Shown here in pieces: positions 34,026 to 54,324 of a DNA stretch of 64,000 nucleotides. This DNA is from an uncultured Bacteroidales bacterium (GTDB taxonomy: Bacteria; Bacteroidota; Bacteroidia; Bacteroidales; F082): the NCBI GenBank assembly GCA_946185535.1, contig CAMHJX010000007.1, positions 1-64,000 of the forward strand. Reading direction: 5' to 3'. Positions within the stretch are counted from its first letter, which is position 1. Each line of letters opens with the position of its first letter. The notes beneath the pieces were generated by a model. That model worked only from the letters and a program-made list of their open reading frames with translations, was not told the DNA's origin and did not search any database. A program made the position numbers and the translations under genes.

Positions 34026-37000
34026 TTAGTTCTGAGAAACAGAACGCACGGGACGCACACTTTGACCATAGTCACGGGTGTCTTGCCAGAACATGAAGTA
34101 ATCGTCCGAGTTGAAGAAGAAGTCCCACGCAATGCTCGGGTAATCCGTGCGAAGCGAACTCGACCAGTAGACGCCCCAACTGTCGGTATAGCCGAGAAAG
34201 CTATTGTAGCGGTAGCCAGCGGCAGGCAGGAAGAGACTATTGCCGTTTGTGGCGGTGAAGAGGCGTCCGTTCACCCCGTTTTGAGTCGTCCAAGTATGGG
34301 TCGTGTTGTCGAGAAGTTCCTCCCATTCCTCCTTGGTGGGCATGCGCCAGCCACTGCCCCAATTGGCCGTGGCCGCGTCGTCCTCGGGCAACAAGATGGT
34401 CAGGTCGTCGTAGAAGCCTTCGTAGCCGAAGGTAGAGTAGCTGCAATACTTGGTGAGTTGCGGGTATTCCTCCAAGATACCATTTACATATTGGTAGGTG
34501 TCCCAGTTGTAGGTGTCCTTCGGCGTGGTTTCGCCCCAGGCGAAGTAGTCGCCGTATTCTTCGGGGCTGTCGGCACCCACGTTGCAGGTGGCCCAAAGCA
34601 GGCCGCTCGGCAGGCCGAGGTCGACGTAGTCGTTTATATGAGCCTCGCCGCGGATGCAGACCGTGGTCGTCTCCGTCACATGCACGAAGAAGCCTTGCAT
34701 CGGGGCAATAGGCCCGCAGGTGATGGTCTGCAAGTCGCCGTTCTCATCATATATCATGACTTCCATCGGCACCAGCTCGCCATCGCTGGTCTGGCGGTAG
34801 ACGTAGGCATTGTAGGTGAAGGGGTTGCCCAAGAGCTCCCAACCGTTATAGGGGTTGGCTGAGCCTTCGGTGTACTCCACGGTAATATCCATAGTTGTTT
34901 CATAATTGGTAGAAAGCGTGGCGCCCGGCACCGAAATCTCAATGGACTCGGGATTGGCATAAAGGTATCCCGAACCATAACCGACATAACTGATGGAGTA
35001 CTGCTTGTGGTTGCGCCATTCGGCATCCGGCTCGTTCGGGTCAAAACGGTAGAGGTCGTTGCCCTCGTTGGCAGTCATGGCTGTAGGCACTTGGGAATTT
35101 AGGAACGGGAAAGCCAGCAGATAATAGTTGTCCTGGTTGTTCGCATCGCCATAGCCTACGATATTCTTCTTCATCGTCACCACAAGACCCGGGGTATTGT
35201 GCTTCAGCTGTCCGCCGTCGGCCACGGTGATGCTGCCGCCTTGTTTGCTCACCGTGTTGGCCACGGCTATATAGCCTGCAGGAACGATGACGTCAGCTTG
35301 GATGATGACGTCGCTGCCCGCGGGAGGCACCGTGCCTGTGTTCCAATGGCTGCCTTCGTTCCAGTTGCCGTTGCTAATGAAGATGGGTGGCGTGTCGGTG
35401 GTGAAGTAGTGCATGGCACTCCAATCCGTATAGGAGCCGCTGCCGTCGCAGTCCATGTCTCTCACCTGCCATTCGTATTCGGTGGCAGGCATAAGACCGG
35501 TGATGTCGACGCTTGAGCCGGCGACAAGGACTGTCGTCCAGTCGGTCAGGGCATTGGAATAACAAACGCTGAAGTCGTCCACGTCGAGGTAACACTTATC
35601 TGTGCAGTCAAAGTGACGGATGGCCACATAGCCTTGTAGTCCGGCATAGGCACCCAGGTCAACGGTAAACTCGTACCATGTTCCTTGGGCACGACTGTCG
35701 CCGCGGGTAGCGATGGCGCGACCGCCACTTCCCTTGGCGGCCATCGTCCATTCTTGCACCATAGTGAAGGCTGATGGACTGGTGTTGTTCGTTGTAGAGA
35801 CGGCCACACCGAAATGTTCGGCTGCATAGAGGTTATCCTGAGCGCAAGCATAGAACCTGACAACGCCTCCTAAAGGTATCCTTGGCGTGACGAGATAGTT
35901 GTCGGGGGTCAGGGGACCTACTCCAGACACCCAACTTGCGGAAAGCACCATGGATTGGCTCTCATGGCCTCCCCAAGTCGTGTTAACTTGCCAGCTATAG
36001 CCATCGCCGTCGGCGTCAATGGTCGTCCATTGGTCAAGGCCATCCTCGAAGTCATCATAGAAGACGGAGGCCTGCCTGTACCTCAGCGTGTAGGCGTCTT
36101 GCAATCCGTTCCAACTCAGCGTAGCCGAGTTCAGTGCGACATCGGAAGCCACCAATGCACCAGGCCGCATGCAAGGATCGGGTGCCGTGAAGCTGAATTT
36201 GTCAAGGTATAAGTAGAACTGGTCATACGAATTACACCTGACGGCCACAAACTTGGTACCAGCAGGAAGCAATGTGTGGTAGCGTTTCCAACGTGTATTG
36301 GAAACAGTGGTCTCTTCCTCCCAGGTGAAGTTGTCCACATCGGAGTCGGTGGTTGACCAGCCCACTTGGAACCTTTCGCAATATGCAAGGGAATTGTTCT
36401 TGTATTGGAACTCGACAGCCAAGCCCTCATCGGTGCCGACCAGCTCGGGGGAAATCAGATATTGGGGCGGAGCATAGTTATACTTGAAACTGAAACCGTA
36501 AGAGCCAGTATACGCGCCATTCACGTTGATACCCGTTAATCCGTCGCAGTCAACCATCGACCAGCAGTTGAACTCGTCGCTGTCCTCGAAGCCATAGGCA
36601 TAAGGAATGGTTCTTGCGCATGTGCCGCTCCCGTTGAGGATGAGCTGGTTCTTGAAGGGGATGGTGAATAATGTGCCAACATAGCCCGAGGGACTGCTGG
36701 GGTTGAAGTCGGTGTTGTCGTTGTAAACATAAATGGACTGTTGCTCATCGGGTATGTAGCCTCGACACTCCATGTGCGGTTCATTCGACCAGCTTCCCGT
36801 GTTGTCATCCATGACCAAGAGAAGGTTGGACGTGCCGTTGTAGGCGAAGGGCGTGTCAAGCTCAATGGTGGTCCAGTAGCCCTTGGTCATGGTCACCGTG
36901 CCGCTGAAGACGCGGTTGGCCGACGACACTGACACCCAGTCGGTGCCGCTGCTGAAGCTGTTCTTGGCGGTATGCAACATATAGATGTCATAGCTTCGGG

Positions 37001-39941
37001 TTTTCGTGTTGCCGGCATTGTAGAAGGATATGCTATTGATCGTGGTGCTTCCGCCAAGCTCATTGGGGGTGTAGATTTGTTCCGACAGGCCGTATCTGAA
37101 ATAGGAATAGCTGGGCAGGTAGGTAGAGTTTGCTGTCCAATTGTTGCTCACATAAACACCACTGATAGGCATGAAGACGGCCTCAAGCTCCGCATTCTCT
37201 GTCACGACGAAGCTGTATGTGGTTTCGCAACTGACCACGGTCCCGTTATGACTCCAATGCAGGAAGAGGTTCCCCTCGTCGGGAGTGGCCCTCAGTGTGC
37301 AGGTCATGCCTGCGCCATAGTGCCCTGCCCCGCTCACCGTGCCTGTGCCGTTGCCGGCCACGGTGGCCGTGACGTCATACGAATGGCTGTTCAAGAGGAT
37401 TTGGTTCTTCACCCCTAAACTTGAGCCCGAGTAAGAGGACGCGTTGCTGGGGTTGTAGTTGATGCCATCGCTATAGACACGGAGCGATTGGACGCCACTA
37501 CCATACGTCCGGCAAGCCATCTGGGGGGCCATCGTCCAGTCTCCCGTGTTATCGTCCACGACCAAGAGAAGGTTGGAGGTACCGTTGTAGGCGAAGGGCG
37601 TGTCAAGCTCGATGGTGGTCCAGTAGCCTCGGGTCATGGTCACAGTGCCGCTGAAGACACGGTTGGCTGTTGTAACGTTGACCCAATCTGTGCCGCTGCT
37701 GAAGGCATTCTTTGTGGTATGCGACATATAAATGTCATAGCTACGCGTTTTTGTCGGGCCTTCGTTGAAGAACGACAGCGAGCTTATGGTGGTGCTTCCG
37801 CCAATCTCCGACGGGTTGTAGATTTGCTCAGAAAGCGAGTAGTTAAAATACGAATAGCTTGGAAGGGTCTCGTTGGTTGACTGGTCTTCGCCGACGAGTG
37901 TCCCTGTTACGAGCATGAAGACCGCATTGATGTCTACCGTCTCCCCTTGCATCGTCCAACTGTAGGTCGGGTCGCAGCTGACCACTTCACCATCGATGCT
38001 CCAATGGAGGAACATGTATCCGGCATTCGGCGTGGCCGTCACCGTGCATGTCTGACCGTAATTGTAGTAACCGTTGCCCGTCACCGAGCCGCCTGCGGAA
38101 GGAACGGCCGAGGGGACGACGACTCCGCCGCACAACACACCCGTCATGTTGGTGAACGCGCTCCAGCCCTGGGCAGACTGATACTGTGAAAGCGTATGGC
38201 ATGGCACTTGGACCGGGATGCTTTTCGGCACATTGGCAAACGCTGTTGCGCTCGTGGTAGGTGGAAATTCGGGCAAGGCTTGGATGGACGTCAAGTGATT
38301 GCAATTTTTAAAGGCATTAGCACCTATCGAGTTCACGGAAAGGCCGATGGTCAGCGTGCCGTTGAATCCAGTGCACCCAGCGAAAGCAGTCTCGCCAATC
38401 GTGGTCACGGAATTCGGGATGGTAAGGCTTCCAGTGAAGCCGTCACAAAGGTAGAAAGCAAGGTTGCCTATCGAGGCCACAGAATTACCGAGGGCAAGGG
38501 TGCCGACAAAGCCATCGCATACAGCGAAAGCTTCCTCTCCTATCGAAATCACGGAATTGCCAATGGTCAAGTTGCCATTGAAACCGTTGCATTGGTAGAA
38601 GGCATTTTCTCCTATCGTGGTCACGGAATTCGGGATGGTCAAGTTACCTGTAAAACCATGGTTGCCATAAAAAGCCGCATAACCAATCGAGGTCACCGAA
38701 TTGCCAATGGTTAGCGTACCATCGAAACCACTGTAATTAAAGAAAGCATAATCACCTATCGAGGTCACGGAATTGCCTATGATGAGTGAACCACTGAAAT
38801 TGGCAGCCAATCTACCTCTAAAGCTTTCAGGGATGTTAGGCATGTTAACATTCAAGCCGTTGAAAGTGCAATTCTGGAAAGCATTAATGCCAATCGAAGT
38901 CACGGAATTGCCGATGAACAACGGGCCACTATACGTTCCGCCAACAGTGCTTATGAAATTGTTTGGGATGTTAGGCATATTGATGCTCAAGCCGTTGAAA
39001 GTGCAATATAGGAAAGCATTCTCGCCAATCGAGGTCACGGAATTGCCGATGGTCAACGTGCCATTGAATCTAGTGCACCCAGCGAAAGCATCCTCGCCAA
39101 TCGTGGTCACGGAATTGGGGATGGTAAGGCTTCCAGTGAAGCCGTCACAAAGGTAGAAAGCAAGGTCGCCTATCGAGGTCACAGAATTACCGAGGGCCAA
39201 GGTGCCGACAAAGCCAAGGCATCCAGAGAAAGCTTCCTCTCCTATCGAAATCACGGAATTGCCAATGGTCAAGTTGCCATTGAAACCGTTGCATTGGTAG
39301 AAGGCATTTTCTCCTATCGTGGTCACGGAATTCGGGATGGTCAAGTTACCTGTAAAACCATGGTTGCCATAAAAAGCCGCATAACCAATCGAGGTCACCG
39401 AATTGCCAATGGTTAGCGTACCATCGAAACCACTGTAATTAAAGAAAGCATAATCACCTATCGAGGTCACGGAATTGCCTATGATGAGTGAACCACTGAA
39501 ATTGGCAGCCAATCTACCTCTAAAGCTTTCAGGGATGTTAGGCATGTTAACATTCAAGCCGTTGAAAGTGCAACCCATGAAAACATTTTCGCCAATATCG
39601 GTCACGGAATTGGGGATGATCAGCGAGCCTGTCAAGCCATTACAGTCCTTGAAAGCATAATCGCCTATTTTTGTCACGGTGTAAGTTACGCCATTATGGG
39701 TTACACTAGAAGGTAAGGTGATGCTCCCCGTGGGTTTGGTGTATCCATCCCAAGGATTTGTAGTGCTTGTTCCCGGATAGGTTATCTCCACATAATGATT
39801 GGTGGCATTAATGATGTTGTAATAGAACGTCTTCCCATAGTATGTTGCTGAGAAGTTGTACGCATACGCCGTTCCCATGCCCAAGCTGAGGGCAAGGAGG
39901 AGGGCGAAAACTCCTTTTCGATGTTGTAGCGTTCTTTTCAT
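34026..39941 (-). CDS. Giant BspA-type leucine-rich-repeat surface protein
   Basis: A 1971-residue exported protein. The signal peptide is about 1-27 (ALLLALSLGMGTAYA). Residues about 80-590 are LRR_5/BspA repeats of the LTIPNSVTTIGENAFYQC type. An InlB-type repeat then alternates with two copies of the 155-residue LPSYSYFNYSLSEQIY module. Next come MAM/cleaved-adhesin-like modules with fibronectin-type strands, a beta-helix-like stretch (GSDVIIQADVIVPAGYIA) and a C-terminal FISUMP domain (YVDLGLPSGLLWATCNVG ... GWRMPTKEEW). No T9SS tail is seen; FISUMP ends at VRPVRSVSQN. It is likely an adhesin. Its promoter carries a palindrome shared with the sensor kinase operon. Confidence 0.85.
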   Translation of the reverse strand: MKRTLQHRKGVFALLLALSLGMGTAYAYNFSATYYGKTFYYNIINATNHYVEITYPGTSTTNPWDGYTKPTGSITLPSSVTHNGVTYTVTKIGDYAFKDCNGLTGSLIIPNSVTDIGENVFMGCTFNGLNVNMPNIPESFRGRLAANFSGSLIIGNSVTSIGDYAFFNYSGFDGTLTIGNSVTSIGYAAFYGNHGFTGNLTIPNSVTTIGENAFYQCNGFNGNLTIGNSVISIGEEAFSGCLGFVGTLALGNSVTSIGDLAFYLCDGFTGSLTIPNSVTTIGEDAFAGCTRFNGTLTIGNSVTSIGENAFLYCTFNGLSINMPNIPNNFISTVGGTYSGPLFIGNSVTSIGINAFQNCTFNGLNVNMPNIPESFRGRLAANFSGSLIIGNSVTSIGDYAFFNYSGFDGTLTIGNSVTSIGYAAFYGNHGFTGNLTIPNSVTTIGENAFYQCNGFNGNLTIGNSVISIGEEAFAVCDGFVGTLALGNSVASIGNLAFYLCDGFTGSLTIPNSVTTIGETAFAGCTGFNGTLTIGLSVNSIGANAFKNCNHLTSIQALPEFPPTTSATAFANVPKSIPVQVPCHTLSQYQSAQGWSAFTNMTGVLCGGVVVPSAVPSAGGSVTGNGYYNYGQTCTVTATPNAGYMFLHWSIDGEVVSCDPTYSWTMQGETVDINAVFMLVTGTLVGEDQSTNETLPSYSYFNYSLSEQIYNPSEIGGSTTISSLSFFNEGPTKTRSYDIYMSHTTKNAFSSGTDWVNVTTANRVFSGTVTMTRGYWTTIELDTPFAYNGTSNLLLVVDDNTGDWTMAPQMACRTYGSGVQSLRVYSDGINYNPSNASSYSGSSLGVKNQILLNSHSYDVTATVAGNGTGTVSGAGHYGAGMTCTLRATPDEGNLFLHWSHNGTVVSCETTYSFVVTENAELEAVFMPISGVYVSNNWTANSTYLPSYSYFRYGLSEQIYTPNELGGSTTINSISFYNAGNTKTRSYDIYMLHTAKNSFSSGTDWVSVSSANRVFSGTVTMTKGYWTTIELDTPFAYNGTSNLLLVMDDNTGSWSNEPHMECRGYIPDEQQSIYVYNDNTDFNPSSPSGYVGTLFTIPFKNQLILNGSGTCARTIPYAYGFEDSDEFNCWSMVDCDGLTGINVNGAYTGSYGFSFKYNYAPPQYLISPELVGTDEGLAVEFQYKNNSLAYCERFQVGWSTTDSDVDNFTWEEETTVSNTRWKRYHTLLPAGTKFVAVRCNSYDQFYLYLDKFSFTAPDPCMRPGALVASDVALNSATLSWNGLQDAYTLRYRQASVFYDDFEDGLDQWTTIDADGDGYSWQVNTTWGGHESQSMVLSASWVSGVGPLTPDNYLVTPRIPLGGVVRFYACAQDNLYAAEHFGVAVSTTNNTSPSAFTMVQEWTMAAKGSGGRAIATRGDSRAQGTWYEFTVDLGAYAGLQGYVAIRHFDCTDKCYLDVDDFSVCYSNALTDWTTVLVAGSSVDITGLMPATEYEWQVRDMDCDGSGSYTDWSAMHYFTTDTPPIFISNGNWNEGSHWNTGTVPPAGSDVIIQADVIVPAGYIAVANTVSKQGGSITVADGGQLKHNTPGLVVTMKKNIVGYGDANNQDNYYLLAFPFLNSQVPTAMTANEGNDLYRFDPNEPDAEWRNHKQYSISYVGYGSGYLYANPESIEISVPGATLSTNYETTMDITVEYTEGSANPYNGWELLGNPFTYNAYVYRQTSDGELVPMEVMIYDENGDLQTITCGPIAPMQGFFVHVTETTTVCIRGEAHINDYVDLGLPSGLLWATCNVGADSPEEYGDYFAWGETTPKDTYNWDTYQYVNGILEEYPQLTKYCSYSTFGYEGFYDDLTILLPEDDAATANWGSGWRMPTKEEWEELLDNTTHTWTTQNGVNGRLFTATNGNSLFLPAAGYRYNSFLGYTDSWGVYWSSSLRTDYPSIAWDFFFNSDDYFMFWQDTRDYGQSVRPVRSVSQN
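38370..39579. repeat. 702-bp tandem duplication inside the LRR gene
   Basis: Sequence at 38370-38877 recurs nearly unchanged 702 bases further on (39072-39579). The offset was checked at the CTTCCTCTCC (38531/39233) and TTGCCAATGG (38701/39403) landmarks. The unit equals 234 codons, so the frame is kept. Confidence 0.88.
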
Positions 39942-39998: not shown

Positions 39999-40044
39999 CA
40001 AAAATATAGGAAATTTTTGAAACAATTGTAAGTAAAATTACTTA
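39999..40044 (-). promoter_or_regulatory. LRR gene promoter with activator-type palindrome
   Basis: The minus-strand -7 element TATTTTTG is at 39999-40006. TAAGTAA-AA-TTACTTA lies at 40029-40044, with its centre 30.5 bases upstream of the -7 element, in place of a -33 TTTG. The same palindrome at the same distance stands before the sensor kinase gene. Confidence 0.65.
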
Positions 40045-40070
40045 TTGCAACAAAAAAACATCAAAATTAT

Positions 40071-40144
40071 GTCACACGGATTACACAGATTACACAGATA
40101 TTGCTCGGCTGCCGCAGGCAAAAAATCCGTGAAATCTGTGTGAC
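40071..40144. repeat. Intergenic inverted repeat (TCACACGGATT type)
   Basis: GTCACACGGATTACACAGATT on the left is mirrored by AATCTGTGTGAC with AATCCGTG on the right, around a small GC hairpin. It ends four bases from the response regulator stop and could act as its terminator or be a dispersed repeat. Confidence 0.65.
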
Positions 40145-40147
40145 ATA

Positions 40148-40777
40148 TCATCTATGTGCCACCAACCCGGCCTCGTAGGCGTATTTCACCAAGTCTGCCG
40201 TGGTGTTGAGGTCGAGCTTTTCGAAGATATGGCTTTTGTGCACCTCCACCGTGCGGCGGCTGAGGCAAAGGCGGTCGGCAATCTGTTGGGCCGACATGCC
40301 ATTGGCGCACAACTGGATGATTTCTATCTCACGTGCCGACAGGTCGGCTTTTGCCTTAATGCGGTATTGTCTGTCTTCGTCGTCACCATTGATTTCAAAC
40401 AAGGCATTGAGTTTTGCCTTCAGCGTCTCCGGTTCTATTTCCTTGCCTAAATATCCATCTACAAGACCTTGGGTGTCAGCCACTAAATCTTCGTTCTCAA
40501 TTTCGCCCGAAATCAGGACTATTTTGGCCTTAGGGCTGAGCGCTCGCGAATGATGGATCACATCAACGCCAGTGCCGTCGGGCAGGAAGTAGTCGAGCAA
40601 GATGAGGTCCACCTCATCGGCATGTTGCTCAAGATAGCTCTTGGCCGACTTCACATCGTCGGCCTCGGCTGCAACGACGCAGCTCAAGCCAGAATAGTTG
40701 AGCGACAAGCGGATGCCCACGCGATAAAGCGGATGGTCGTCCACCAAGAGGATTCGTATAGGCTTTCGTTGGGTCAT
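40148..40777 (-). CDS. LuxR/NarL-family response regulator
   Basis: A 209-residue response regulator. The receiver domain is at about 7-125, with DD13-14, the phosphoacceptor D62 (LILLDYFLPDGTG) and a Lys near 110. The LuxR-type helix-turn-helix is at about 145-205 (LSAREIEIIQLCANGMSAQQIADRLCLSRRTVEVH, where the recognition helix lies). It overlaps the sensor kinase stop by 4 bases (ATGA) and should be phosphorylated by it. A palindrome upstream of the operon and of the LRR gene is its best candidate site. Confidence 0.94.
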   Translation of the reverse strand: MTQRKPIRILLVDDHPLYRVGIRLSLNYSGLSCVVAAEADDVKSAKSYLEQHADEVDLILLDYFLPDGTGVDVIHHSRALSPKAKIVLISGEIENEDLVADTQGLVDGYLGKEIEPETLKAKLNALFEINGDDEDRQYRIKAKADLSAREIEIIQLCANGMSAQQIADRLCLSRRTVEVHKSHIFEKLDLNTTADLVKYAYEAGLVAHR

Positions 40778-42621
40778 TGGTTGCCTTTCTTTATGGTGAT
40801 AGTCACTACGGTTCCCTTTCCTTCTTCGCTTTCTATCGCTATGGTTCCACCGTTATGTTCCATCATCTGCTGACTGACGAAAAGGCCAATGCCGGTGCCT
40901 AACTCGCCGCAGGTGCCTTCGGTCGAAGAGGTCATCATCTTCAGCAATTTGCCTAACTTTTCCTTATCGATGCCTTTGCCGTGGTCAATTACCTTAACCA
41001 GATAACGCTCGCCACCGTCTTCGGCTTCCAACCTGATTTCGCCGTTGTCGAAAGAGTATTTCACCGCATTCGAGAGGATGTTCTGCAACACCATCTCAAT
41101 GATTTTGGGGTCGTCGTTGCCTATCCAATCCTTGGGTATGGCATTGGTGACCTTCAGTTGCTTCTGCCCTATTTCGAAGGCCAGGCTACGCGTCACCGTT
41201 TCGACCAATTCGCACAGGTTGAAAGGCTCGGCTTGGCTTTTGGTGTCGCCAATCATGCCCTTCACCCAACCGATGACATTGATGGTCTTGACATTCAATT
41301 CTTTGGTTGACGATTTCAATGTGAACAGATACTCCTTCAGGTCTTCAGGTGGCATCTCATCCATGTATTTACAGATAAGGTCGAGGATTTTCTCCTGCGC
41401 CTGCAACGGCGTCTTGATGTCGTGCGAGACCACGGTGAACAATTGGTTCTTGGTATTGTTGAGGCGGGTCAGCGTTTCGTTCTGTTTTTTACGTTGGATG
41501 GCGTTGCGCGCCAGCACCACGACCAAGACGAGCAGCAAGGCCACCACAAGCAGCGACAAGGAAAGCAGGAGACGGCTTTGTCGGGTTTTCTCCTCCTGCA
41601 TCTCCAGTGCATGCTCTTTCTCTGACATTTGGTACCTCACTTGGTAGTCGCGAATCAAGGCTTGCTGGTCTTCGTTGTAGATGGAGTCCCTCATCTTGTT
41701 GCATTCCTCAAGATAGCCGATGGCGCGTTCGGGGTGTGAGGTCTTTGTGGCCAGATAGGCACCTTGCATGCACTCCAGGTAAAACTGGTTGTACTGGTTT
41801 TCTTTCGCGATGTCGAAGGCTTCGAGGAAGTGTTGCTCCGAAGCCATGTCGTCGCCACGGTCGTGGGCATATTGGCCTTTGAGCATGATGATGGCGGTTT
41901 CGAAGTAGAGCTCTTTTTCGTGTTGTGCAATGACAAGTGCGGTGTCGAGTTGTGCATGTGCCTCGTCGATGCTTCCTGTCGCTTGGTAGGCTCTCGACAA
42001 GGTGATGTGCCTGTTGATCAATTTTTCTTGGTTGTCGCCATATTGTTTCGACAAAGCCAAGGCCTGTTCGGCAAAGTCAACGGCCTCGGCTTGGGTTTTG
42101 TCGTGCTGCGGGTCGTCGGCTGCCATCAGTCCGAGTTGCATCAGTCGCACCCCTGAGAGGTTCTGGTAATAGGTGGCCAGGTCGAGGTTGGTCGTCGTGT
42201 CGTTACCCGGCTCCCCCAACATCTCGATACATTTCCAGTACATCTCCTCCGACTGGTCATATTCCTCCATGTCGAAGTAAATCGAAGCGATGTTGTTAAT
42301 GACATACCGTTTGTTGACGGAGGCCATCTCGCCACCGATTTCATCCATGATTTCGGTGCAGAGGGTGTAGTTGCGTATGGCTTCGTCATATTGCCCCATG
42401 CGCATGTAGGCCCCTGCGATGGTGTTGTAGCATCCTGCCACATTGTACTTGTCGTCCACCTGTTCATAAAGTTGCAACGCCTGCTTGCTATAGTCAATCA
42501 CCTCAACGAAACGGCTCTCGTTGAAGCATTGCAATATCTTGGCCCTTAGGCTGTCAGCGTCTTGCGCCTTCACCCCTATTACGAGGCAGGCAAGGATTAT
42601 GGTGGAAAACAGTCTTTTCAT
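40774..42621 (-). CDS. TPR-containing sensor histidine kinase
   Basis: 615 residues. A signal peptide (about 1-19, IILACLVIGVKA) is followed by periplasmic tetratricopeptide repeats to about residue 330, one membrane segment (LLLSLSLLVVALLLVLVVVLA, about 350-370), a short coiled coil, a HisKA domain with the phosphoacceptor His in TVVSHDIKTPLQAQ (about 397), and a GHKL ATPase domain with QNILSNAVKYS, DHGKGID and GTGIGLFVSQ. This is the common Bacteroidota TPR-kinase layout; the signal sensed is unknown. It forms a two-gene operon with the LuxR response regulator. Confidence 0.94.
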   Translation of the reverse strand: MKRLFSTIILACLVIGVKAQDADSLRAKILQCFNESRFVEVIDYSKQALQLYEQVDDKYNVAGCYNTIAGAYMRMGQYDEAIRNYTLCTEIMDEIGGEMASVNKRYVINNIASIYFDMEEYDQSEEMYWKCIEMLGEPGNDTTTNLDLATYYQNLSGVRLMQLGLMAADDPQHDKTQAEAVDFAEQALALSKQYGDNQEKLINRHITLSRAYQATGSIDEAHAQLDTALVIAQHEKELYFETAIIMLKGQYAHDRGDDMASEQHFLEAFDIAKENQYNQFYLECMQGAYLATKTSHPERAIGYLEECNKMRDSIYNEDQQALIRDYQVRYQMSEKEHALEMQEEKTRQSRLLLSLSLLVVALLLVLVVVLARNAIQRKKQNETLTRLNNTKNQLFTVVSHDIKTPLQAQEKILDLICKYMDEMPPEDLKEYLFTLKSSTKELNVKTINVIGWVKGMIGDTKSQAEPFNLCELVETVTRSLAFEIGQKQLKVTNAIPKDWIGNDDPKIIEMVLQNILSNAVKYSFDNGEIRLEAEDGGERYLVKVIDHGKGIDKEKLGKLLKMMTSSTEGTCGELGTGIGLFVSQQMMEHNGGTIAIESEEGKGTVVTITIKKGNQ

Positions 42622-42716
42622 GCCTTACTCCCATTTATATTAACTAATTGATAATCAAAAGATGCAACATTACATAGATTTATACGTATGTCCTAATTCT
42701 TAAAGAATACGACATA

Positions 42717-42763
42717 CAAAATTAGAAATGATTTCGGAAATAGCGATAAGTAAATTTACTTAT
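42717..42763 (-). promoter_or_regulatory. Sensor kinase operon promoter with activator-type palindrome
   Basis: The -7 element TAATTTTG is at 42717-42724. The perfect 18-bp palindrome ATAAGTAAATTTACTTAT is at 42746-42763, centred 30.5 bases upstream of the -7 element. No -33 TTTG is present, as expected for an activator-dependent promoter. Confidence 0.65.
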
Positions 42764-42802
42764 TGGCGCAAAAAACTGTTGGGACGCGGGGGTGGCAAAA
42801 AC

Positions 42803-45701: not shown

Positions 45702-47558
45702 TTACCTCACCACAATCTTTTGCACACGAACGTCGTCACCGTTGACAAGGCGCAACACATACGTGCCAGGTGCCATCCCGCCTGTAGAGACGCGATTCAT
45801 CGCGTCTCCTTGGCACGAAACAACGATGCGCCCCATAATATCAATCACCTGTAAAGACGCATTGGATGCGTCTCCCAACCCATCCGCAATGACGATGTCA
45901 CCATCGCTGAAATAGGCAAAGGTCCCTGAGCCTGTCGAAGGGCCATTGTCATCATTTGCGTCCACGCAAATGAAAACAATCTTGAAGCGGCTGGCATAGT
46001 CCGTTGTGCGGGCGTTAAAGCAATAGGTCGAGGTTTCCAACAGATCCACCTCCTTGCCCGTGAGATTGTCAATCAGATGCAGATAGTTCATGTCCACAAG
46101 GGAAGCGCTGACGCCGATGGTGTAGTTGCCATCCTCATAAGCCTTGAAATTGACTGGAAGCTCGCCTTGTACGTCAGAGGTGACGATGGCATAGTCCGTC
46201 CCTTCCTGCGGGATGGAGAGCTGCGGCCCATTGCCTTGGAACACAAACTTGGCCAAGGCGTCGTCAGGATTGAAACTGATGATGGCACAATCCGAAGCGG
46301 CACCACGGCCAGAGGAAGACACCGTCAATTTCAGGCTACCATGGTCTTTATTCGGGGCTGTTTGACTGAAACCGACTACTTCTCCAGCGGAAGAAGCTTT
46401 CACCATAATGCCCGTACAAGGCATAATGGCTTCGACCTCCGACGCGGCAACGGGGTCCAATTCCGTACCCTCGGCATTCAACACATAATAGCTTCTGTCG
46501 GCATAGACATTATAGGTAAAAGGATTACCAATCAAGTTCCAACCTTTTTGGGTATAGTCTGAGCCATAGCCTAATGCAACGTTTTCGACAGTGCTGTTGA
46601 GCTCACCTGCAAATCCAAGAACCACATCCTCGGTATTGGCATAAAGATACCCTCCTCCGGGATTCATGGTCAAATCGTGGTTCTTGAAATTGCGCCATTC
46701 CAACACATACGTCTGGTCAAAGGCATACAGGTCATAACCTTCCTCGTTCACCAAATTGTCGACTGTGGTATGTGACGTCCCTCCCACCAACGGAGAAGCG
46801 ATGAAGCACCATTTGTCGGAACCTGTGCCGTAGCCTTCGACGAATTTCTGTATTGTGGCATAAACGCCTTCCGTGTTGTCGCAAACCAATTGTCCGCCAT
46901 CGGCGATGATGAGCTTGGTGGCAGCATCACTGATGATGCTGTTCGCCGTGAGGGTGTAGCTTTCCATGACGGTCAGCGAAGAGCCGTCGTTCACGACCAC
47001 TCTATACACTTCAGCATCCTGATCGAGTTGACAAGGTGCGTTGACGATGACAAGGTCATAATTGGACGGTATGGCATTGCTTTCCCAATTGTCAGCCAGC
47101 GACCATAATGAATTAACCGTTCCATTAAAGACGAATTGTGTTGAATTGGTGGTGAACGGAAACACGTAAGGGTCACGGGGAATGCCGTAAGAATCGTCAG
47201 CGACGAATGTGTAGGTGACATCACAGGTCACATCAACCTCTGCCTGAGTCACATGATTCCAAAGTTTGAACGTCATCACCATACCTGCCTCGCCATTCAC
47301 CGTCAGATAGGCAAAATACCGATCCTTGAGCGGCTCATACTCGCATCTGTAGCTGCCACGACACTCACCGTCGCAAAATGCACCTATCTCCAAATCCTCA
47401 CTCCGCTGTTCCAAACCATTGATGGAAAGGACGGAAACGAAAGTGGCATTATAGGCATACTGATTGGGGTTCCAGGTCCAATGCTCTCCCTCGGCATACG
47501 ACAGACAAGAGGCCGACAAGAGCAACGCCATTGCTAAAAATCTAATAACCTTTTTCAT
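45702..47558 (-). CDS. T9SS-sorted surface protein with palindromic repeats in its tail
   Basis: 618 residues. A signal peptide (about 1-22) is followed by a 110-residue module (NATFVSVLSINGLEQ...GAFCDGECRGS) shared with the proteins at 47581, 54325 and 59885. The middle is beta-helix-like (NWESNAIPSNYDLVIV, KLIIADGGQLVCDN) with a GWNLIGNPFTYNVY stretch also seen in the LRR protein. The C-terminal T9SS type A domain runs FSDGDIVIADGL...LQVIDIMGRIV...MAPGTYVLRLVNG...QKIVVR. Two palindromic repeats (45783-45808, 45853-45872) are translated within this tail as GDAMNRVSTGG and GDASNAS. No enzyme domain seen. Confidence 0.82.
   Translation of the reverse strand: MKKVIRFLAMALLLSASCLSYAEGEHWTWNPNQYAYNATFVSVLSINGLEQRSEDLEIGAFCDGECRGSYRCEYEPLKDRYFAYLTVNGEAGMVMTFKLWNHVTQAEVDVTCDVTYTFVADDSYGIPRDPYVFPFTTNSTQFVFNGTVNSLWSLADNWESNAIPSNYDLVIVNAPCQLDQDAEVYRVVVNDGSSLTVMESYTLTANSIISDAATKLIIADGGQLVCDNTEGVYATIQKFVEGYGTGSDKWCFIASPLVGGTSHTTVDNLVNEEGYDLYAFDQTYVLEWRNFKNHDLTMNPGGGYLYANTEDVVLGFAGELNSTVENVALGYGSDYTQKGWNLIGNPFTYNVYADRSYYVLNAEGTELDPVAASEVEAIMPCTGIMVKASSAGEVVGFSQTAPNKDHGSLKLTVSSSGRGAASDCAIISFNPDDALAKFVFQGNGPQLSIPQEGTDYAIVTSDVQGELPVNFKAYEDGNYTIGVSASLVDMNYLHLIDNLTGKEVDLLETSTYCFNARTTDYASRFKIVFICVDANDDNGPSTGSGTFAYFSDGDIVIADGLGDASNASLQVIDIMGRIVVSCQGDAMNRVSTGGMAPGTYVLRLVNGDDVRVQKIVVR
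45783..45872. repeat. Two GAGACG-type palindromes inside a T9SS gene
   Basis: GAGACGCGAT-TC-ATCGCGTCTC (45787-45808, preceded by TGTA) and AGACGCAT-TGG-ATGCGTCT (45854-45872, preceded by TGTA). They share the TGTA(G/A)AGACG start with the frdA insertion but have different inner stems, each fully self-complementary. Confidence 0.8.
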
Positions 47559-47580
47559 ATTTCTAATTGATTTGGTTTTC

Positions 47581-50010
47581 TTATTGAATGATCAGTTTTC
47601 TGTAATAGGCTCTGTTGGAAGCACCATGTACACGGATGACATAGGTGCCTGGAGCCAATGTCTCACTTATCCTGAATGATGTGCCGTTGACTTCCATCTT
47701 GCTGACCAACACATCAAGCACATTATAAATATCCACATGAACTGTGCCCTCATCCTCTGGCAATTCGAGACGGACCTCTCCGCCACGCTTTACAGGATTG
47801 GGGAAGAGACTCAGCAAGGTCTCATTCTCTTGCAGGCCAGTGGTACTGCCGAAATGCAATGCCATAGGATTGTCGAGACTGCCAAGGACTGCGTTGACGG
47901 CAAAAATGCAGGTTTCGTCAGCCTGGCTGAAGTATTCAACGCCCTTGTCCGCGCTATAGAGTCTGAACGTGATGCCCATACCCTCATCACCCAAAACAGG
48001 CAACAAGGCATAGTAACTGTCACGGCGGGCATTATACTGGAGTCTTGTACTACCCAAGCAGGTGCCATTACAGAAGGCAGCCACTTCATAGCTATCGGAA
48101 CGCAGCTCCTCACCATCGAGGAAAACCAAAGCCACAATGCTCATATTGTCAGCAAATGTGTGGAAGTTGGCTCTCCAGTTGGTGGCTTCTGCAACTTCTT
48201 CGGCAACACATCCTCGGCTTTCGCTGTATTTGAAGCTATGGCTGCGCTGTGCCTTATACATATAACCCATTCCCGGATACATATTGTTCAGGCTTCCGAA
48301 CCATCCGTCATCACCGTCGTAAACCGAGAATTGGCTTATCGACTTCAACAGGTCGCCATCATCGGGATCGAGCTGTGACAAAGAGCTGTTGACCGATTGC
48401 GTTGAGGCCAAGGGATAGCCTATCCATGTCCAATTTGACGAAAGGTCAATGTTAAGTTGGGAGGCATTCACGGGGACGCCGCTCAAGCTGAAATCGACGT
48501 CCGACGAAGTCTGCACCAAATACATGTACCGGTTGTCAAGCGAATTAAGGCTTCCATACCAACCGTCTCCATAATTCATGACGAAGCCATCTTGTTGCGA
48601 TTTGATGTTGAGGCCGCTCTCACCCAAACCATTCTCCAGCTGTTCAAGACCGCCGCCGCTCACATTGACATAGGTGCTCCACCAGTTCCAACCTTGAGCC
48701 AGCTCGTACTGCACGCTGACCGTGGATGAAGGTTCAAATTCGGCCACCAGTTCGAGGTTATCGTGGATGGCAAAAGTATAGACATAGTCTTCTGATACGG
48801 TTACACCATTGAGCATCCAACGTCTGAAGGCATATTCCCCAGTAGGAATGGCGGTGAGGGTCACTTGCGAGTCATACACATAGGTTCCTGCGCCCGTCAC
48901 AGTTCCGCCCTCTTCGGGTGAAACCACAACCGACACGAAAAGATTATAGTTGCCATACTCAAAGTCAGGCTCCGCCTTCATCTCTTCCACATTGCCGGCA
49001 TTGTCCTCGCCTAAGCAGTAGAACCGATAGCAATGGTTGTATTCAGTCGGGAAGACTGCCTCTGTCCCAGCCAAATATGTGTCGTAATACTGATAGGGTG
49101 CGTAGTTGTCCGAGACATAAAGCTTGTACTGCTTCAGTCCACTCCCTCCTTCATCGTCCTCACCTGTGAACTGTAGCAAAAGCTCGTTGACCAAGCCGTC
49201 GTCAGAGCCTGTCATTTGGGTTGTGGGCGGCAAGGCATCCACGGTGTTGTGCCACACGTTGGTGGGGAGCGGCTCGTTGACATCGAAGACGATGGAAGCT
49301 GTTGCCGTGACCACATCGCCTGTGACGCATGCTGAGGCTTTGGGTCTGATGGTGAACGTCACGAAGCCTTCACCGTTGTGACTCTCATCGTTGATGGGCA
49401 GGAAACCCTGTTGTGTTCCTTGCGGTGGCAAGCCCGTGGCGGGGTCGATGCTTTCGAAGATCCAGAAGGCTTCGTTGGTGACCACATCGATGCCGGCCAC
49501 CACATCCACATAGAGTCCCATGTCCTCTGTCATGTCCAATCGCTGTTGGTAAGTGGCGAAGTTACCCTCGACGGCGAAGATATGGCTGCCAAAGCCGAAG
49601 GAACCAACGGCGAAAGTGGCGATGTCGGCCTTGGCGTGCAGCGGCAGCCGGATTTCGACCATTTGTGCCGCAGCGGTGGCAAAGTCGGGGTCGTTCTCGA
49701 AGTAGATGGTGTAAGGCAGCGAGGCCGTCAACGACACCCATTGCAAGGTATCACCCGGAGCATCGTAGCCCACGGTTCCAATGATTTCATTGGGGTCTTG
49801 TGGGGCGAAGACTGAGATGTCGGCATTTGCGGCGATTAAAGCATCAACGATTCTTTTTTGTTCTTCGTCTAGTGCTTGGTAGCCTTGGTAACATCTGACC
49901 CAATTTTTCCTAGGTCTATGTGGTTTTTGTGCATTAGCCTGATTAGCCAATCCTATCAACAAGCAGATAAGAATCACTATTGTTGTTCTTATAGTATTCA
50001 TTTTTTTCAT
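47581..50010 (-). CDS. T9SS-sorted multidomain surface protein
   Basis: 809 residues. After a signal peptide (about 1-27) comes a region typical of the tail of giant Bacteroidota proteins (APQDPNEIIGTVGYDAPG, LPYTIYFENDPDFATAAAQ, VGSFGFG, FDVNEPLPTNVWHNTVDALPP; I recall this as a DUF7619-like domain). Then follow an InlB-type repeat, one GWNWWSTY/NWTWIGYP domain, the NMSIVALVFLDGEEL...AFCNGTCLGS module, and a T9SS type A tail (LSLFPNPVKRGGEV...GTYVIRVHG...YYRKLIIQ). It is 16 bases from the RHS gene. Since this tail is usually fused to CARDB-rich proteins, it may act with the CARDB protein upstream. Confidence 0.83.
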   Translation of the reverse strand: MKKMNTIRTTIVILICLLIGLANQANAQKPHRPRKNWVRCYQGYQALDEEQKRIVDALIAANADISVFAPQDPNEIIGTVGYDAPGDTLQWVSLTASLPYTIYFENDPDFATAAAQMVEIRLPLHAKADIATFAVGSFGFGSHIFAVEGNFATYQQRLDMTEDMGLYVDVVAGIDVVTNEAFWIFESIDPATGLPPQGTQQGFLPINDESHNGEGFVTFTIRPKASACVTGDVVTATASIVFDVNEPLPTNVWHNTVDALPPTTQMTGSDDGLVNELLLQFTGEDDEGGSGLKQYKLYVSDNYAPYQYYDTYLAGTEAVFPTEYNHCYRFYCLGEDNAGNVEEMKAEPDFEYGNYNLFVSVVVSPEEGGTVTGAGTYVYDSQVTLTAIPTGEYAFRRWMLNGVTVSEDYVYTFAIHDNLELVAEFEPSSTVSVQYELAQGWNWWSTYVNVSGGGLEQLENGLGESGLNIKSQQDGFVMNYGDGWYGSLNSLDNRYMYLVQTSSDVDFSLSGVPVNASQLNIDLSSNWTWIGYPLASTQSVNSSLSQLDPDDGDLLKSISQFSVYDGDDGWFGSLNNMYPGMGYMYKAQRSHSFKYSESRGCVAEEVAEATNWRANFHTFADNMSIVALVFLDGEELRSDSYEVAAFCNGTCLGSTRLQYNARRDSYYALLPVLGDEGMGITFRLYSADKGVEYFSQADETCIFAVNAVLGSLDNPMALHFGSTTGLQENETLLSLFPNPVKRGGEVRLELPEDEGTVHVDIYNVLDVLVSKMEVNGTSFRISETLAPGTYVIRVHGASNRAYYRKLIIQ

Positions 50011-50026
50011 TATTTATTAATGTTAA

Positions 50027-53000
50027 TTAATCAAACCAACTTTTTACCGTATTAACGAAATCTTTTCTTCTAGCTCCCCGTCTCATCATCTTTTCCGCAT
50101 GAGCATCAGAAAATGGTATTCCTGTCATATAATAGAACTCGTTGGTTGGTTTATTTTGGGCTATATTATATGCCTTTTGCTGTTGTCTAGTAGCATTTTC
50201 ATAATCTGACCCGTTTGCAACAAAGGCAAGGCAATCAGCTTCCATAATATCAACCCACTGGTCTCTAGCCTTTCCCGCTTCTCTACCCATACCTTCAAAC
50301 ACGTCTTGAGATAATCCAGCATAATAACCTGCATCATTAAGAGCTTGATTCCAAGCCCCTTTTAATATTCTTAAACCTGAGCTTAAACCGCCAGAAGAAT
50401 TCCCGTTAAAAGCATCCTTCGTTACATTCCAAGCCTCTCTTAATCCACCTCGAATTGCCCCTTCAAAAGCACCTACTGTTCCACATATAGGAGCCGCAAG
50501 CACTGTTCCAACAAACTTGGAATCAGCAGCATATTCTTCCTCAAATGTAGCAAAACCTTTTTTACTCCATGGCCAAACGCCAGATTTATCCCAAAGCCTA
50601 ATCATCTCAACTCCACCTTGAATCTCTGCAATCAAATCTCCTGCTGCACTAAGACTTTTAGGACCTAAAGCAGAAAGGACACTACCGCCATCTGAAATAC
50701 CGCCCATAAAGGCATCAAACTTTGTCTCGGTAGAAGCTGGATTATTATTCTCATACGAATATGTATTCATAGATTTAACATAAACCAAAACATCCTGTTC
50801 CGTATATCGTCCCTGAGTTGTATTATAGTTTCTATCGGAAGTATGATAACTGCCAGTATAATCATCCATATAATTTCCTTCGTACAAAAACGGCATTTCC
50901 GTAGACACATCTCTTGAAAAAACAGTTGTTTTACCAAAAGGGTCATACGAATACCGTTCACTTATGGCATTATTGTCATCAATTAGCAACGTAGTCGAAC
51001 CGAGCTGATCTTTTTGAAGATAATAGGAATTGTTACCTTTTATAAACTTGACTATGTCTTTGGTGTTTTGACCATAAACAAATGATGAAACCAGATTCCC
51101 ATAATCATCATTTTCTTCTATCATCATATTTCTTGCATAATGATAATTCTCCGTCTGGCTTACACTTGGCACTTGGCGTTGAATCATACGACCTAATGCA
51201 TCATATTTATATATTACAGAATTACCATTATCAACGCTAACTCGCCTATTATTACCGTCATATTGATACGTATGGATTCCATCATTTGTCAAATTTCCGT
51301 TATCATCATAAACCATATTCTGATTGCTGCCTGGCCCAATGATAGATGTATATGCATTCATCATATTAGTCGAAAAGTGAGTCGTAACACCGTTTTCAAT
51401 GACATCCGTGCGATTCCCCAAACCATCCAATCCATACGAAATATGGCAAGCAGGTGCGGCTATCAAATAATCATTATTCATTTCACCCCTTTGATAATCT
51501 ACCAAGCGATCCAATGCATCATAAGTATAGGACTGGCTATCCTCAACATTAATCATGTCTTTCCTTGCCAAAAGATTATTCGAAGCATCATAGACAAGCT
51601 GATAATCAATAGTGTTATGATTATCATACAAATGATTCATTCGTCCCAGCTCATCATACGCATAATTGGTAACAGCACTGTTTGCGTATGTTCTGCTTAT
51701 CACATTTCCTGCATTGTTGTATTCAAACGAAGCCACCACTCCTCCATTTACATAAACGCCTGTTGTTCGTGAGCGTAAATCACGTGTCTCCATAACCTGC
51801 TTTCCACTAGGATAGGTAATTCCAACAGTTCTATTAGCGGTATTATAAGAATAGGTTGTCAATGCACCGTTCATTTCTTCGGACAACAACCTTCCAACTG
51901 CATCACGAGTAAAGATGGAAGTCGCGTTTTGATTAGATGCACTTATAAGATTTCCAGCCAAATCATATTGGAAAGCAGAATACTCATTAGTTCTATCAGA
52001 ACTTTGTATAGTCGTCAGCCTGTCTACAGCGTCGTAAGTCAAAGTAGTTTGCTCTCCTGCTTCATTTTCTTGCAATGTAATGTTACCTTTGCCATCATAC
52101 CAAAAGCGGCGAGTTTTTCCATTGGGAAAAGTAACTTTTTTCAACTGATACAACAAATCATACTCGCATGTGGTCGTGTTACCATTGGCATCCGTCACAG
52201 ATACAAGATTTCCATTGCTATTGTAACTATAGGAAGTCATGTAATTCAAAGCATTAGTATGTGTCACCATATTGCCTTTGGCATCATAAGACAGTATTGT
52301 GGCATTTCCGTTTCTGTCCATATAGGTCAACAAATTGCCCTTGTTGTCATAGGAAAGATACTCGGAATTGCCCATAGCATCAGTATGTTGGATTAGACGG
52401 CCCAGTGCATCGTATGTAAAATAATCCGAATACCCTAAAGCATTTTCTATCTGAATGACGTTGTTATTGGCATCATAATGACATACATAGAAAGTTCCCA
52501 TCTGGTCTGAAGCAGATATCACTCGCCCCAATGCATCATATTGGTAAACTATGTTTTCTCCATTCGCCAAACTCACACCTACTAAATCACCAACATTGTC
52601 ATAAGCACGTCTTATGGTGTCATTAATAGCATCGATACTCATCACCAATTGATTGTTGTCGCCATAAACAAAACAGTTCTCATGGTTCATAGCATCCACA
52701 AATTTTGTCAACCGATTACCCGAATAACAGAATTGGATATGGGCTCCTTCAGGACTAAACGCACTGATTAATTGTCCTATGGCATCGTATGAAAACGTAA
52801 AAGTATGATCCAACGCATCCGTATATCCCACCATATTTCCTTTTCGGTCATATTGCATTTGGGTGCTGAAATTCAATCCATCTATGGCCTCAATAAGGTA
52901 TTCCGCGTTATCGTAAACAAATGTCGAAACCGCCCCATTAGGATCCGTCAGCGTCAGTGGCAGACCTGCCTGATTATAAGTGATGGTCGTCACATTCCCC

Positions 53001-54304
53001 AACGGGTCGGTTATGGAAATGAAATTCCCATAGCCGTCATAACCATAGTGGGACGTGTTGCCATTCGCATTTGTGAAAGTAACCGGTTGCCCATACTGAT
53101 TATAGGTCATACTCAACGAATAATTCAACGGCCCATTCATCTGCAGAAGGTCGCCATGAGAGTCATACTGGTAATTGTAGGAATGCCCCATCTTGTCCGT
53201 ATAGGAAGTCACCTTGTTGAACGCACTCTCATAGGTGTAATACTCGGTGTTTCCCAATGGGTCGGTAATCGACAAACAGTTGCCGTTTTGGTCGTAAGTA
53301 TAAGTATAGGCATGTCCATTGGCATCCTCGCGACGAATCAGGTTGTTGTCGTCGTCGTAGGCGAACTTGGTGCTGGTACCCATGTTGACATTCACAATTT
53401 CGGCCAAACGGCCTGCCTCGTCCCATATGTATTTGGAATACTGGTTATTGGCATCCTTTAAATAGTCAATGAACACCGTCTGCCGCTTAGCTATCTCATA
53501 TCGGATGGACTTGTCGGTGAGGTCAGTCTTCACACGGTGTGCCATACCGTCAACATTGTAGCTGACATAGGTGGAATAACCTTCGGCATCGGTGAAGGTC
53601 TTGATGCGGTTGTCCTTGTCGTAGGCATAATACACGGAATAACCCATCGGGTCGGTCACGCAGGTCAAGTTGCCTTTTTCGTCGTATTGGTAGCTCCATG
53701 TGCGGTTGTCGAACGAGGTGCTCAGGCCAACCAGCAGACTGTCGGCCCAAGTGAAGTTGAGCGAACGACCGCTGATGTCGGTGGCGGTGGCGAGATTGCC
53801 TTCTTGATAAACGTAGGTAATCGTGTTATCGTAACGGTCTTTCACCAAGGTCACCTTCTTACTCTCTGCATCGGCAAAATAGTATTTGGTGCCGTCCTTG
53901 TAGGTAAGCAGATAGCCGTTACCTTCGATGCTGAGGGTGCTGAAGACCCCGGCAGGCGCCTCGAAGCTGTTTCCATAACGGGTAAACAGGTCTTGCCGAC
54001 CGTCACCTTGCTCGATGATGATACCCAACGAATCCTCGATGTAGCGCAATTCACCGCCAAGGCTCCAGCCGTTGCCGTAGCCATAGTTCTTCTTGTTGGA
54101 AGAACTGTTGTAGTAGAACACGGCTTCAAGACGCATGTTCCTGTTGCTCACAGAGACATCGGGTCTTTGATAGAACAGAACCCCATTATAGCTGTTCACA
54201 TAAATCCCGTTGGGACATTCCACCTTAGGACGGATGATGTTCTGGGCTTGCACAGCCATCATCGCCAACAGCGTGACGGCCAATATGATTAGTCTTTTCT
54301 TCAT
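50027..54304 (-). CDS. RHS-repeat protein with unrecognised C-terminal domain
   Basis: 1425 residues from ATG 54304 (MKKRLIILAVTLLAMMAVQA signal peptide); ATG 54322 is an alternative start. More than 30 YD/RHS repeats (GNLTCVTDPMGYSVYYAYD type) run from about 160 to 1150, ending in a degenerate RHS core (YDPFGKTTVFSRDVS...NTYSYENNNPAS). The last about 200 residues after the core (from GGISDGGSVLSALG) are not recognised; in RHS toxins this is where a variable effector domain sits. No immunity-type gene follows. Sequence from about 53100 down to 50027 is clearly more AT-rich than the first 400 codons, suggesting a recombinant gene. It lies between a CARDB gene (20-base gap) and a T9SS-tailed gene (16-base gap). 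Confidence 0.88.
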   Translation of the reverse strand: MKKRLIILAVTLLAMMAVQAQNIIRPKVECPNGIYVNSYNGVLFYQRPDVSVSNRNMRLEAVFYYNSSSNKKNYGYGNGWSLGGELRYIEDSLGIIIEQGDGRQDLFTRYGNSFEAPAGVFSTLSIEGNGYLLTYKDGTKYYFADAESKKVTLVKDRYDNTITYVYQEGNLATATDISGRSLNFTWADSLLVGLSTSFDNRTWSYQYDEKGNLTCVTDPMGYSVYYAYDKDNRIKTFTDAEGYSTYVSYNVDGMAHRVKTDLTDKSIRYEIAKRQTVFIDYLKDANNQYSKYIWDEAGRLAEIVNVNMGTSTKFAYDDDNNLIRREDANGHAYTYTYDQNGNCLSITDPLGNTEYYTYESAFNKVTSYTDKMGHSYNYQYDSHGDLLQMNGPLNYSLSMTYNQYGQPVTFTNANGNTSHYGYDGYGNFISITDPLGNVTTITYNQAGLPLTLTDPNGAVSTFVYDNAEYLIEAIDGLNFSTQMQYDRKGNMVGYTDALDHTFTFSYDAIGQLISAFSPEGAHIQFCYSGNRLTKFVDAMNHENCFVYGDNNQLVMSIDAINDTIRRAYDNVGDLVGVSLANGENIVYQYDALGRVISASDQMGTFYVCHYDANNNVIQIENALGYSDYFTYDALGRLIQHTDAMGNSEYLSYDNKGNLLTYMDRNGNATILSYDAKGNMVTHTNALNYMTSYSYNSNGNLVSVTDANGNTTTCEYDLLYQLKKVTFPNGKTRRFWYDGKGNITLQENEAGEQTTLTYDAVDRLTTIQSSDRTNEYSAFQYDLAGNLISASNQNATSIFTRDAVGRLLSEEMNGALTTYSYNTANRTVGITYPSGKQVMETRDLRSRTTGVYVNGGVVASFEYNNAGNVISRTYANSAVTNYAYDELGRMNHLYDNHNTIDYQLVYDASNNLLARKDMINVEDSQSYTYDALDRLVDYQRGEMNNDYLIAAPACHISYGLDGLGNRTDVIENGVTTHFSTNMMNAYTSIIGPGSNQNMVYDDNGNLTNDGIHTYQYDGNNRRVSVDNGNSVIYKYDALGRMIQRQVPSVSQTENYHYARNMMIEENDDYGNLVSSFVYGQNTKDIVKFIKGNNSYYLQKDQLGSTTLLIDDNNAISERYSYDPFGKTTVFSRDVSTEMPFLYEGNYMDDYTGSYHTSDRNYNTTQGRYTEQDVLVYVKSMNTYSYENNNPASTETKFDAFMGGISDGGSVLSALGPKSLSAAGDLIAEIQGGVEMIRLWDKSGVWPWSKKGFATFEEEYAADSKFVGTVLAAPICGTVGAFEGAIRGGLREAWNVTKDAFNGNSSGGLSSGLRILKGAWNQALNDAGYYAGLSQDVFEGMGREAGKARDQWVDIMEADCLAFVANGSDYENATRQQQKAYNIAQNKPTNEFYYMTGIPFSDAHAEKMMRRGARRKDFVNTVKSWFD

Positions 54305-54324
54305 AATATGTGAGTTTTTCATTG

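Follow-up and report, generated by a model that had tools for sequence, protein, structure and literature searches.

Does the two-component system encoded next to a giant leucine-rich repeat (LRR) protein switch on both itself and this neighbor, and through which DNA element would it do so? This question is raised by a 64,000-nucleotide stretch of an uncultured Bacteroidales bacterium (contig CAMHJX010000007.1, positions 1 to 64,000; hereafter "the window"), in which the same palindrome, here called the box, precedes the operon of a tetratricopeptide repeat (TPR) sensor kinase with its LuxR-type response regulator as well as the gene of the LRR protein. We think it likely that the regulator binds the box as a class II activator of its own operon and of genes for large exported proteins. 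The box, its spacing, its conservation, its co-occurrence with the kinase, and the covariation of recognition helix and box are all visible in the genomes; binding by the window's regulator, activation rather than repression, the existence of a signal, and a role of the target in adhesion are inferred. The result is a candidate binding site, promoter layout, and target list for a FimS-like TPR kinase/LuxR regulator system, and it bears on how Bacteroidales turn large surface proteins on and off.

One palindrome at one spacing in two promoters

The locus is read on the minus strand in the order box 1, -7 element, TPR histidine kinase, response regulator, box 2, second -7 element, and LRR protein. 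Predicted box 1 (TAAGTAAATTTACTTA, 42747-42762) lies upstream of the kinase-regulator operon, 22 bp before the -7 element TAATTTTG (42717-42724), and predicted box 2 (TAAGTAATTTTACTTA on the minus strand, 40029-40044) lies upstream of the LRR protein gene, again 22 bp before its -7 element TATTTTTG (39999-40006). The two are near-identical 16-bp palindromes, TAAGTAA-N2-TTACTTA, in which a pair of bases separates the two heptamers. An earlier note, made from this DNA alone, had described them as 19-mers that agree at 18 of 19 bases and stand at identical distances from their -7 elements; our recomputation bears out agreement and spacing and leaves the first 19-mer at 40029-40047, while the second is at 42747-42765, its earlier interval of 42748-42766 being one base too high.

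In Bacteroides, the primary sigma factor has TAnnTTTG as its -7 consensus (PMC7366714). As the note had pointed out, neither promoter has a TTTG at -33, and the end of the palindrome occupies this position. The palindrome center lies 34 bp upstream of the center of the -7 element and therefore near -41, close to the -42 proposed before, if the usual start site is assumed. With a -7 TAnnTTTG, no TTTG at -33, and a palindrome near -41 (on the same assumption), the arrangement is that expected of a class II activated promoter. The 22-bp spacer is itself partly conserved over 22 class-A promoters (TTTC, then A-rich), some of which are close copies, and could be an extra contact site.

The same regulator might instead sit on these boxes as a repressor, blocking polymerase at -41/-33 in a negative autoregulation. 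The overlap of the box with the -33 region, where it could hinder access of sigma, favors this view. We nevertheless consider repression improbable because no -33 TTTG remains for an unaided polymerase, because 81% of the primary start sites of Bacteroides thetaiotaomicron have a -7/-33 motif (PMC7366714), and because FimR of Porphyromonas gingivalis is an activator (PMC1974823). Furthermore, the 22-bp spacing recurs before different targets, at sites that were partly selected by spacing, and again in paralogues that were selected by protein similarity. An activator touching polymerase near -41 would explain such fixed spacing, whereas a repressor would not need it.

The two sites also stand out from chance. 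The window contains three matches to the palindrome at up to three mismatches against a shuffle mean of 0.02 (two of the three being one site on both strands), and among its 50 TAnnTTTG elements at least five of seven arm pairs at gap 22 are found at these two only, both with seven of seven. The earlier note had named a random scatter of the palindrome over the genome as the outcome that would speak against it; the genome of 3.67 Mb has exact copies at the two window sites only. With up to two mismatches allowed, the total rises to 12 sites (two exact, one with one mismatch, nine with two) against 26 in the backwards control, so only the exact ones stand out. We rejected the ten degenerate copies as further sites: none of them has a TAnnTTTG at 22-bp spacing, and the single one-mismatch copy (C46:19414) lies about 20 bp upstream of an ATG.

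Palindromes of this kind could also be RNA features such as terminator hairpins, or recent DNA copies that share their spacing by accident, and both boxes do sit between a stop codon and the next same-strand promoter. This explanation is made very improbable by the arms, each of which contains only one G-C pair among seven, by the differing surroundings of the two window sites, and by results described below, namely the recurrence of box and spacing at other places and in other species, including sites before other exported-protein genes, the different palindromes that paralogues show at the same spacing, and the covariation of helix and box.

The putative binder of both boxes is the 209-residue response regulator (40148-40777, minus strand), whose gene lies between the two sites, as the note had it, and adjoins the kinase gene, as in FimS/FimR. 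It combines a receiver (Response_reg, residues 9-123, 63.1 bits, cut-off 30.2) with a GerE/LuxR helix-turn-helix (residues 146-200, 62.7 bits, cut-off 23.5), both over their Pfam cut-offs as in NarL/FixJ-type proteins. The sensor histidine kinase (615 residues, 40774-42621, minus strand) resembles FimS in placing a TPR sensor region at the N-terminal side of the histidine kinase part, with a signal-like N-terminus and a membrane-span-like stretch that were both judged by eye, as was the topology. Its Pfam matches are TPR_12 and other TPR models, HisKA at residues 391-443 under the cut-off (22.6 versus 26.9 bits), and HATPase_c at residues 504-612 over it. The giant LRR protein (1971 residues, 34026-39941, minus strand) has a signal-like start and, by Pfam and NCBIfam, BspA-type LRRs (LRR_5 at 239.5 bits, Pfam cut-off 27.7), InlB B-repeats, and a Cleaved_Adhesin/choice-of-anchor J domain, which together suggest a role in adhesion. 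At its C-terminus there is a weak Lcl_C/FISUMP match under both cut-offs, and no type IX secretion system (T9SS) tail was found among Pfam and NCBIfam matches up to E 0.001.

Two further observations concern the surroundings of these genes. The approximately 80 bp from the regulator stop to box 2 (40070-40150) contain direct and inverted repeats (GGATTACACAGATTACACAGAT ... AAATCTGTGTGACA), a 22-mer of which is single copy in the genome at up to two mismatches, whereas the stop-to-box distance is just 16-25 bp in seven box-bearing orthologous loci. Beyond an S1-domain gene, a series of minus-strand open reading frames (ORFs) extends over 45702-54328, two of which (45702-47558 and 47581-50010) have weak, sub-cut-off matches to T9SS sorting tails.

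Box and kinase across the genus

We searched 173 genomes of the family, 99 of them belonging to the genus, and sought orthologues of the kinase within these 99. When up to two mismatches were allowed, the box with 22 bp and TAnnTTTG was found at 53 places in 25 family genomes, the control giving 19 matches. In its exact form, the spaced box occurs at 20 places in 10 family genomes, all of them within the genus, and the kinase orthologue (72-100% identity, next homologue at most 48%) is present in the same 10 genomes (10/10 versus 0/89 genus genomes, Fisher p = 6e-14, n = 99). One orthologue, in G108, is a contig-end fragment, and that of G061 (L043 6181-8009, G061:C16) consists of two overlapping pieces, by decay or assembly error. 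Of the 10 kinase orthologues, 9 have a box upstream at gap 22 (7 exact, 2 with one mismatch). Behind the regulator, a box lies no more than 700 bp away in 8 of 9 orthologous loci, in 2 of which the -7 element carries one mismatch. The orthologue set itself was defined by protein search, although most of the loci were retrieved through their box. A further contig (L104), not among the hits of the family search, starts with a regulator fragment that is 93% identical over 59 residues and is followed by an exact box.

Another, unlinked transcription factor might own the palindrome, with the two-component system as just one of its targets. Such a factor would fit two discordant genomes: G062, which is 98% complete, has a one-mismatch box and no kinase orthologue, and the kinase orthologue of G108 (G108:C100) has no box upstream. 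(The box of G062, at L047 10919, G062:C21, precedes a 3600-residue exported protein.) Set against this are the co-occurrence of the exact, spaced box with the kinase in 10 of 10 versus 0 of 89 genomes, the way in which paralogue palindromes track the helix of the adjacent regulator, and a GerE scan of the window's genome in which only one other protein scores like the regulator (C2:623, 64.7 bits), at a locus with a single weak 5-of-7 palindrome hit. Taken together, they leave little probability to an unlinked factor.

The gene after box 2 varies by species. In G061, G095, G096, and G097 it encodes a protein that is similar, by blastp only, to the LRR protein of the window; G070 has a T9SS-tailed protein there, G131 an InlB-repeat protein, and G120 first a 91-residue ORF that resembles a helix-turn-helix protein. 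More box-bearing genes, with signal-like N-termini by eye, were found in G061, G076, G095, G096, G097, and G108. Sister species thus have more sites before exported-protein genes, which the earlier note had named as support. Exceptions to exported targets are a 91-residue ORF (L059) and a ClpB-like ATPase (L064, L067), and no ORF was called behind the box in L072 and in L043, where the kinase is in pieces. The ClpB-like AAA ATPase belongs to a paralogous module (L064 2058-4664, also L067) in which it follows the regulator behind a TAGGTAA-type box, in the place of an exported protein.

Nine of 40 stretches from the box search lie outside ruminant Bacteroidales (Aliarcobacter, Fluviicola, Flavobacteriales and Flavobacteriia, Rikenellaceae, sediment Bacteroidales, and lake Bacteroidetes). 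No regulator orthologue was found in their examined loci, and we treated these hits as chance except for a lake contig with two sites. This contig (JAPLDQ010000043.1; L097 1467, L113 6816) carries two TAGGTAA-type boxes that precede, with the 22-bp spacing, two large exported proteins resembling each other. A yak-omasum stretch (L098) has no regulator in view, and a plasmid search with the regulator returned 1341 records, every one under 60% identity.

Paralogous modules and their recognition helices

Protein similarity yielded 52 further loci, which together with three earlier ones and without that of G108 form a set of 54 paralogous modules. Here, at least five of seven arm pairs were found at gap 22 in 23 of 169 TAnnTTTG elements, while the remaining 30 gaps between 10 and 40 gave 0 to 12 elements each, the 12 being at gap 23. 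With one vote per regulator cluster of 70% identity, 7 of 17 clusters have the palindrome at gap 22, while 40 other gaps give 1.05 clusters on average and 3 at most; the corresponding values are 5 of 11 (mean 0.95, maximum 3) for 60% clusters and 10 of 28 (mean 1.05, maximum 3) for 80% clusters. In 20 of the 54 modules, the regulator is followed by a box with this spacing, mostly with other letters; one locus that looks like chance (L225) is counted among both these 20 and the 7 of 17 clusters. By this comparison of sequences, one promoter layout is common to a set of related regulators in the genus, several of which appear to have a box of their own.

The letters of these boxes follow the recognition helix of the regulator: GAGGAG is paired with TPHS, TCCGTA with KRTVETHKER, TAGGAAA or TGGGTAA with S[AV]HTVENHKD, TAGGTAA with SARTVESHKNK, CAGGTAA with SRRTIEGHKSH, and TAAGTAA, the box of the window, with SRRTVEVHKSH. 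The -7 element has one mismatch at TCCGTA- and SARTVES-type sites. Distances between recognition helices and between boxes are correlated (Mantel r = 0.74, n = 27 with L225 dropped, 0 of 5000 permutations; r = 0.755 for 10 representatives, 0 of 5000), though the test is not free of phylogeny because helix and box are partly co-inherited. A narrower rule by which VEG/IEG helices would read CAGG was tried and rejected, with two modules fitting (L176, L195) and four without a box (L179, L213, L217, L219).

For two helix types, the box was searched across the genus. The spaced TCCGTA box was found in precisely those 5 of the 99 genomes that have a KRTVETHKER-type helix, but since the 5 places of the exact search (3 control matches) are the defining sites themselves, this result informs by absence elsewhere only. 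For GAGGAG, the search returned 21 places, spread over 16 genomes, with 4 control matches; 14 of these genomes are among the 17 that have the matching helix, and 2 are among the remaining 82 (p = 2e-12). Ten of these 17 had no box by the adjacency rule, and 7 of the 10 nevertheless have one (p = 5e-7): the box of G124 actually lies about 60 bp after the regulator and is too asymmetric for the rule, those of G113, G050, and G130 lie approximately 0.8, 1.1, and 2 kb after it, respectively, and those of G100, G107, and G115 are on other contigs. The set of 17 includes two genomes with TPHS but without ENMK (L182, L184) and excludes G139 (L211), which has TPHS with a different helix remainder and would make the count 14 of 18. 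G112, where the box is present and the regulator is cut at a contig end, was scored against the helix rule. At ten GAGGAG-type loci, the next ORF is signal-like in eight, absent in one, and an unlikely ORF in one. Three boxes (TAAGTAA, TCCGTA, and GAGGAG) occur together in G131.

Several points weigh against activation by the window's regulator or limit its reach, beyond the two discordant genomes and the overlap with -33. Most genomes are incomplete assemblies, and the regulator of G076 has no box after it; the next gene there begins about 30 bp past the regulator, as in one operon. Five further GerE matches of 22-34 bits exist in the window's genome, one of them in a 181-residue frame. Judged by the adjacency rule, 34 of the 54 paralogous modules are without a box next to them, and no box was found in 3 of the 17 genomes whose regulator has the GAGGAG-type helix. 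TAGGTAA-type sites are only partly matched to their presumed regulator: TAGGTAATTTTACCTATGG-like sites precede DUF6935 lipoproteins and T9SS proteins in seven genomes (G057, G061, G097, G098, G101, G114, and G117), and the presumed regulator (helix SARTVES or SIRTVES; G064, G097, G098, G101, and G114) is present in four of these seven.

The layout was likewise not seen after the LuxR regulators of FimS-like modules elsewhere in the order. An order-wide sample gave 72 places in 61 of 393 genomes, of which 40 loci were examined (the first 41 without G470:C217), 19 of them with a LuxR regulator. After these regulators, at least five of seven arm pairs were found in 1 of 18 elements at gap 22, compared with 4 of 18 at gap 23 and 4 of 18 at gap 35. 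When the loci were counted in full, the values were 17 of 434 at gap 22, 24 of 434 at gap 23, and 4 to 21 at other gaps. We therefore rejected generality across the order and restrict our claim to the genus.

Within the genus, the compact regulon proposed by the earlier note, in which the regulator would activate its own operon and the neighboring adhesin, is supported by the co-occurrence of box and kinase, by the 20 box-bearing paralogous modules, and by the helix-matched letters. We envisage that the TPR kinase senses a signal, probably a periplasmic one, and then phosphorylates the LuxR/NarL-type regulator, a dimer of which would occupy the 7-2-7 palindrome near -41, over the missing -33 element, and recruit RNA polymerase as a class II activator. 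Box 1 would thereby drive the kinase-regulator operon in a positive feedback and box 2 the giant LRR surface protein, with more exported proteins carrying the box in sister species, while some paralogous modules would keep the geometry with their own palindrome fitted to the recognition helix. Private palindromes matched to the helix would insulate modules from each other. On balance, we lean toward the view that the genus contains a natural collection of modules of kinase, regulator, and surface protein that are insulated from one another although they share one chassis (box, 22 bp, TAnnTTTG), with private boxes read by the recognition helix, and the evidence tips slightly in favor of TAAGTAA, TAGGTAA, TCCGTA, GAGGAG, TAGGAAA/TGGGTAA, and CAGGTA as these boxes. 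If this is true, the targets of such LuxR-type regulators in uncultured Bacteroidales would be predictable from the helix. Differently lettered boxes at one spacing could also serve as orthogonal promoters for laboratory Bacteroides.

Comparison with known systems

The closest precedent is FimS/FimR of P. gingivalis, where FimR is a LuxR-type protein, and the likeness extends to the TPR sensor domain, the C-terminal histidine kinase, and the control of adhesins. PMC11053733 and PMC1974823 describe a TPR sensor kinase and a response regulator that control fimbriae, with eight predicted TPRs in the periplasmic domain of FimS (PMC11053733) and FimR binding and activating the mfa1 promoter (PMC1974823). 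Indeed, the best NCBIfam match of the window's kinase is NF053520 HK_Porph_FimS (208.3 bits, E 1.7e-61). This score stays below the equivalog cut-off of 600, which no genome of the order-wide sample exceeded, and the targets in the window and the genus are LRR and other large exported proteins instead of fimbrillins. PMC1974823 uses none of the terms palindrome, inverted repeat, and binding site, and our searches of the open-access literature turned up no clear description of a box for the FimS-like TPR kinase/LuxR class.

With NarL/VraR-type regulators, the window's regulator shares the receiver and the GerE helix-turn-helix. By sequence, NarL is the solved structure nearest to it, and PRK10651 NarL is the best NCBIfam match, though far under the equivalog cut-off (99.2 versus 250 bits). 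NarL sites have the same 7-2-7 arrangement of inverted heptamers, whereas the half-site, the partner kinase of HisKA type with a TPR region, and the Bacteroidota -7 element all differ from the NarL/VraR systems. At class II promoters, finally, the activator site is centered near -41/-42 and replaces the upstream sigma element; the layout proposed here would differ from these in its Bacteroidota TAnnTTTG promoter and in the several differently lettered boxes that stand at one spacing.

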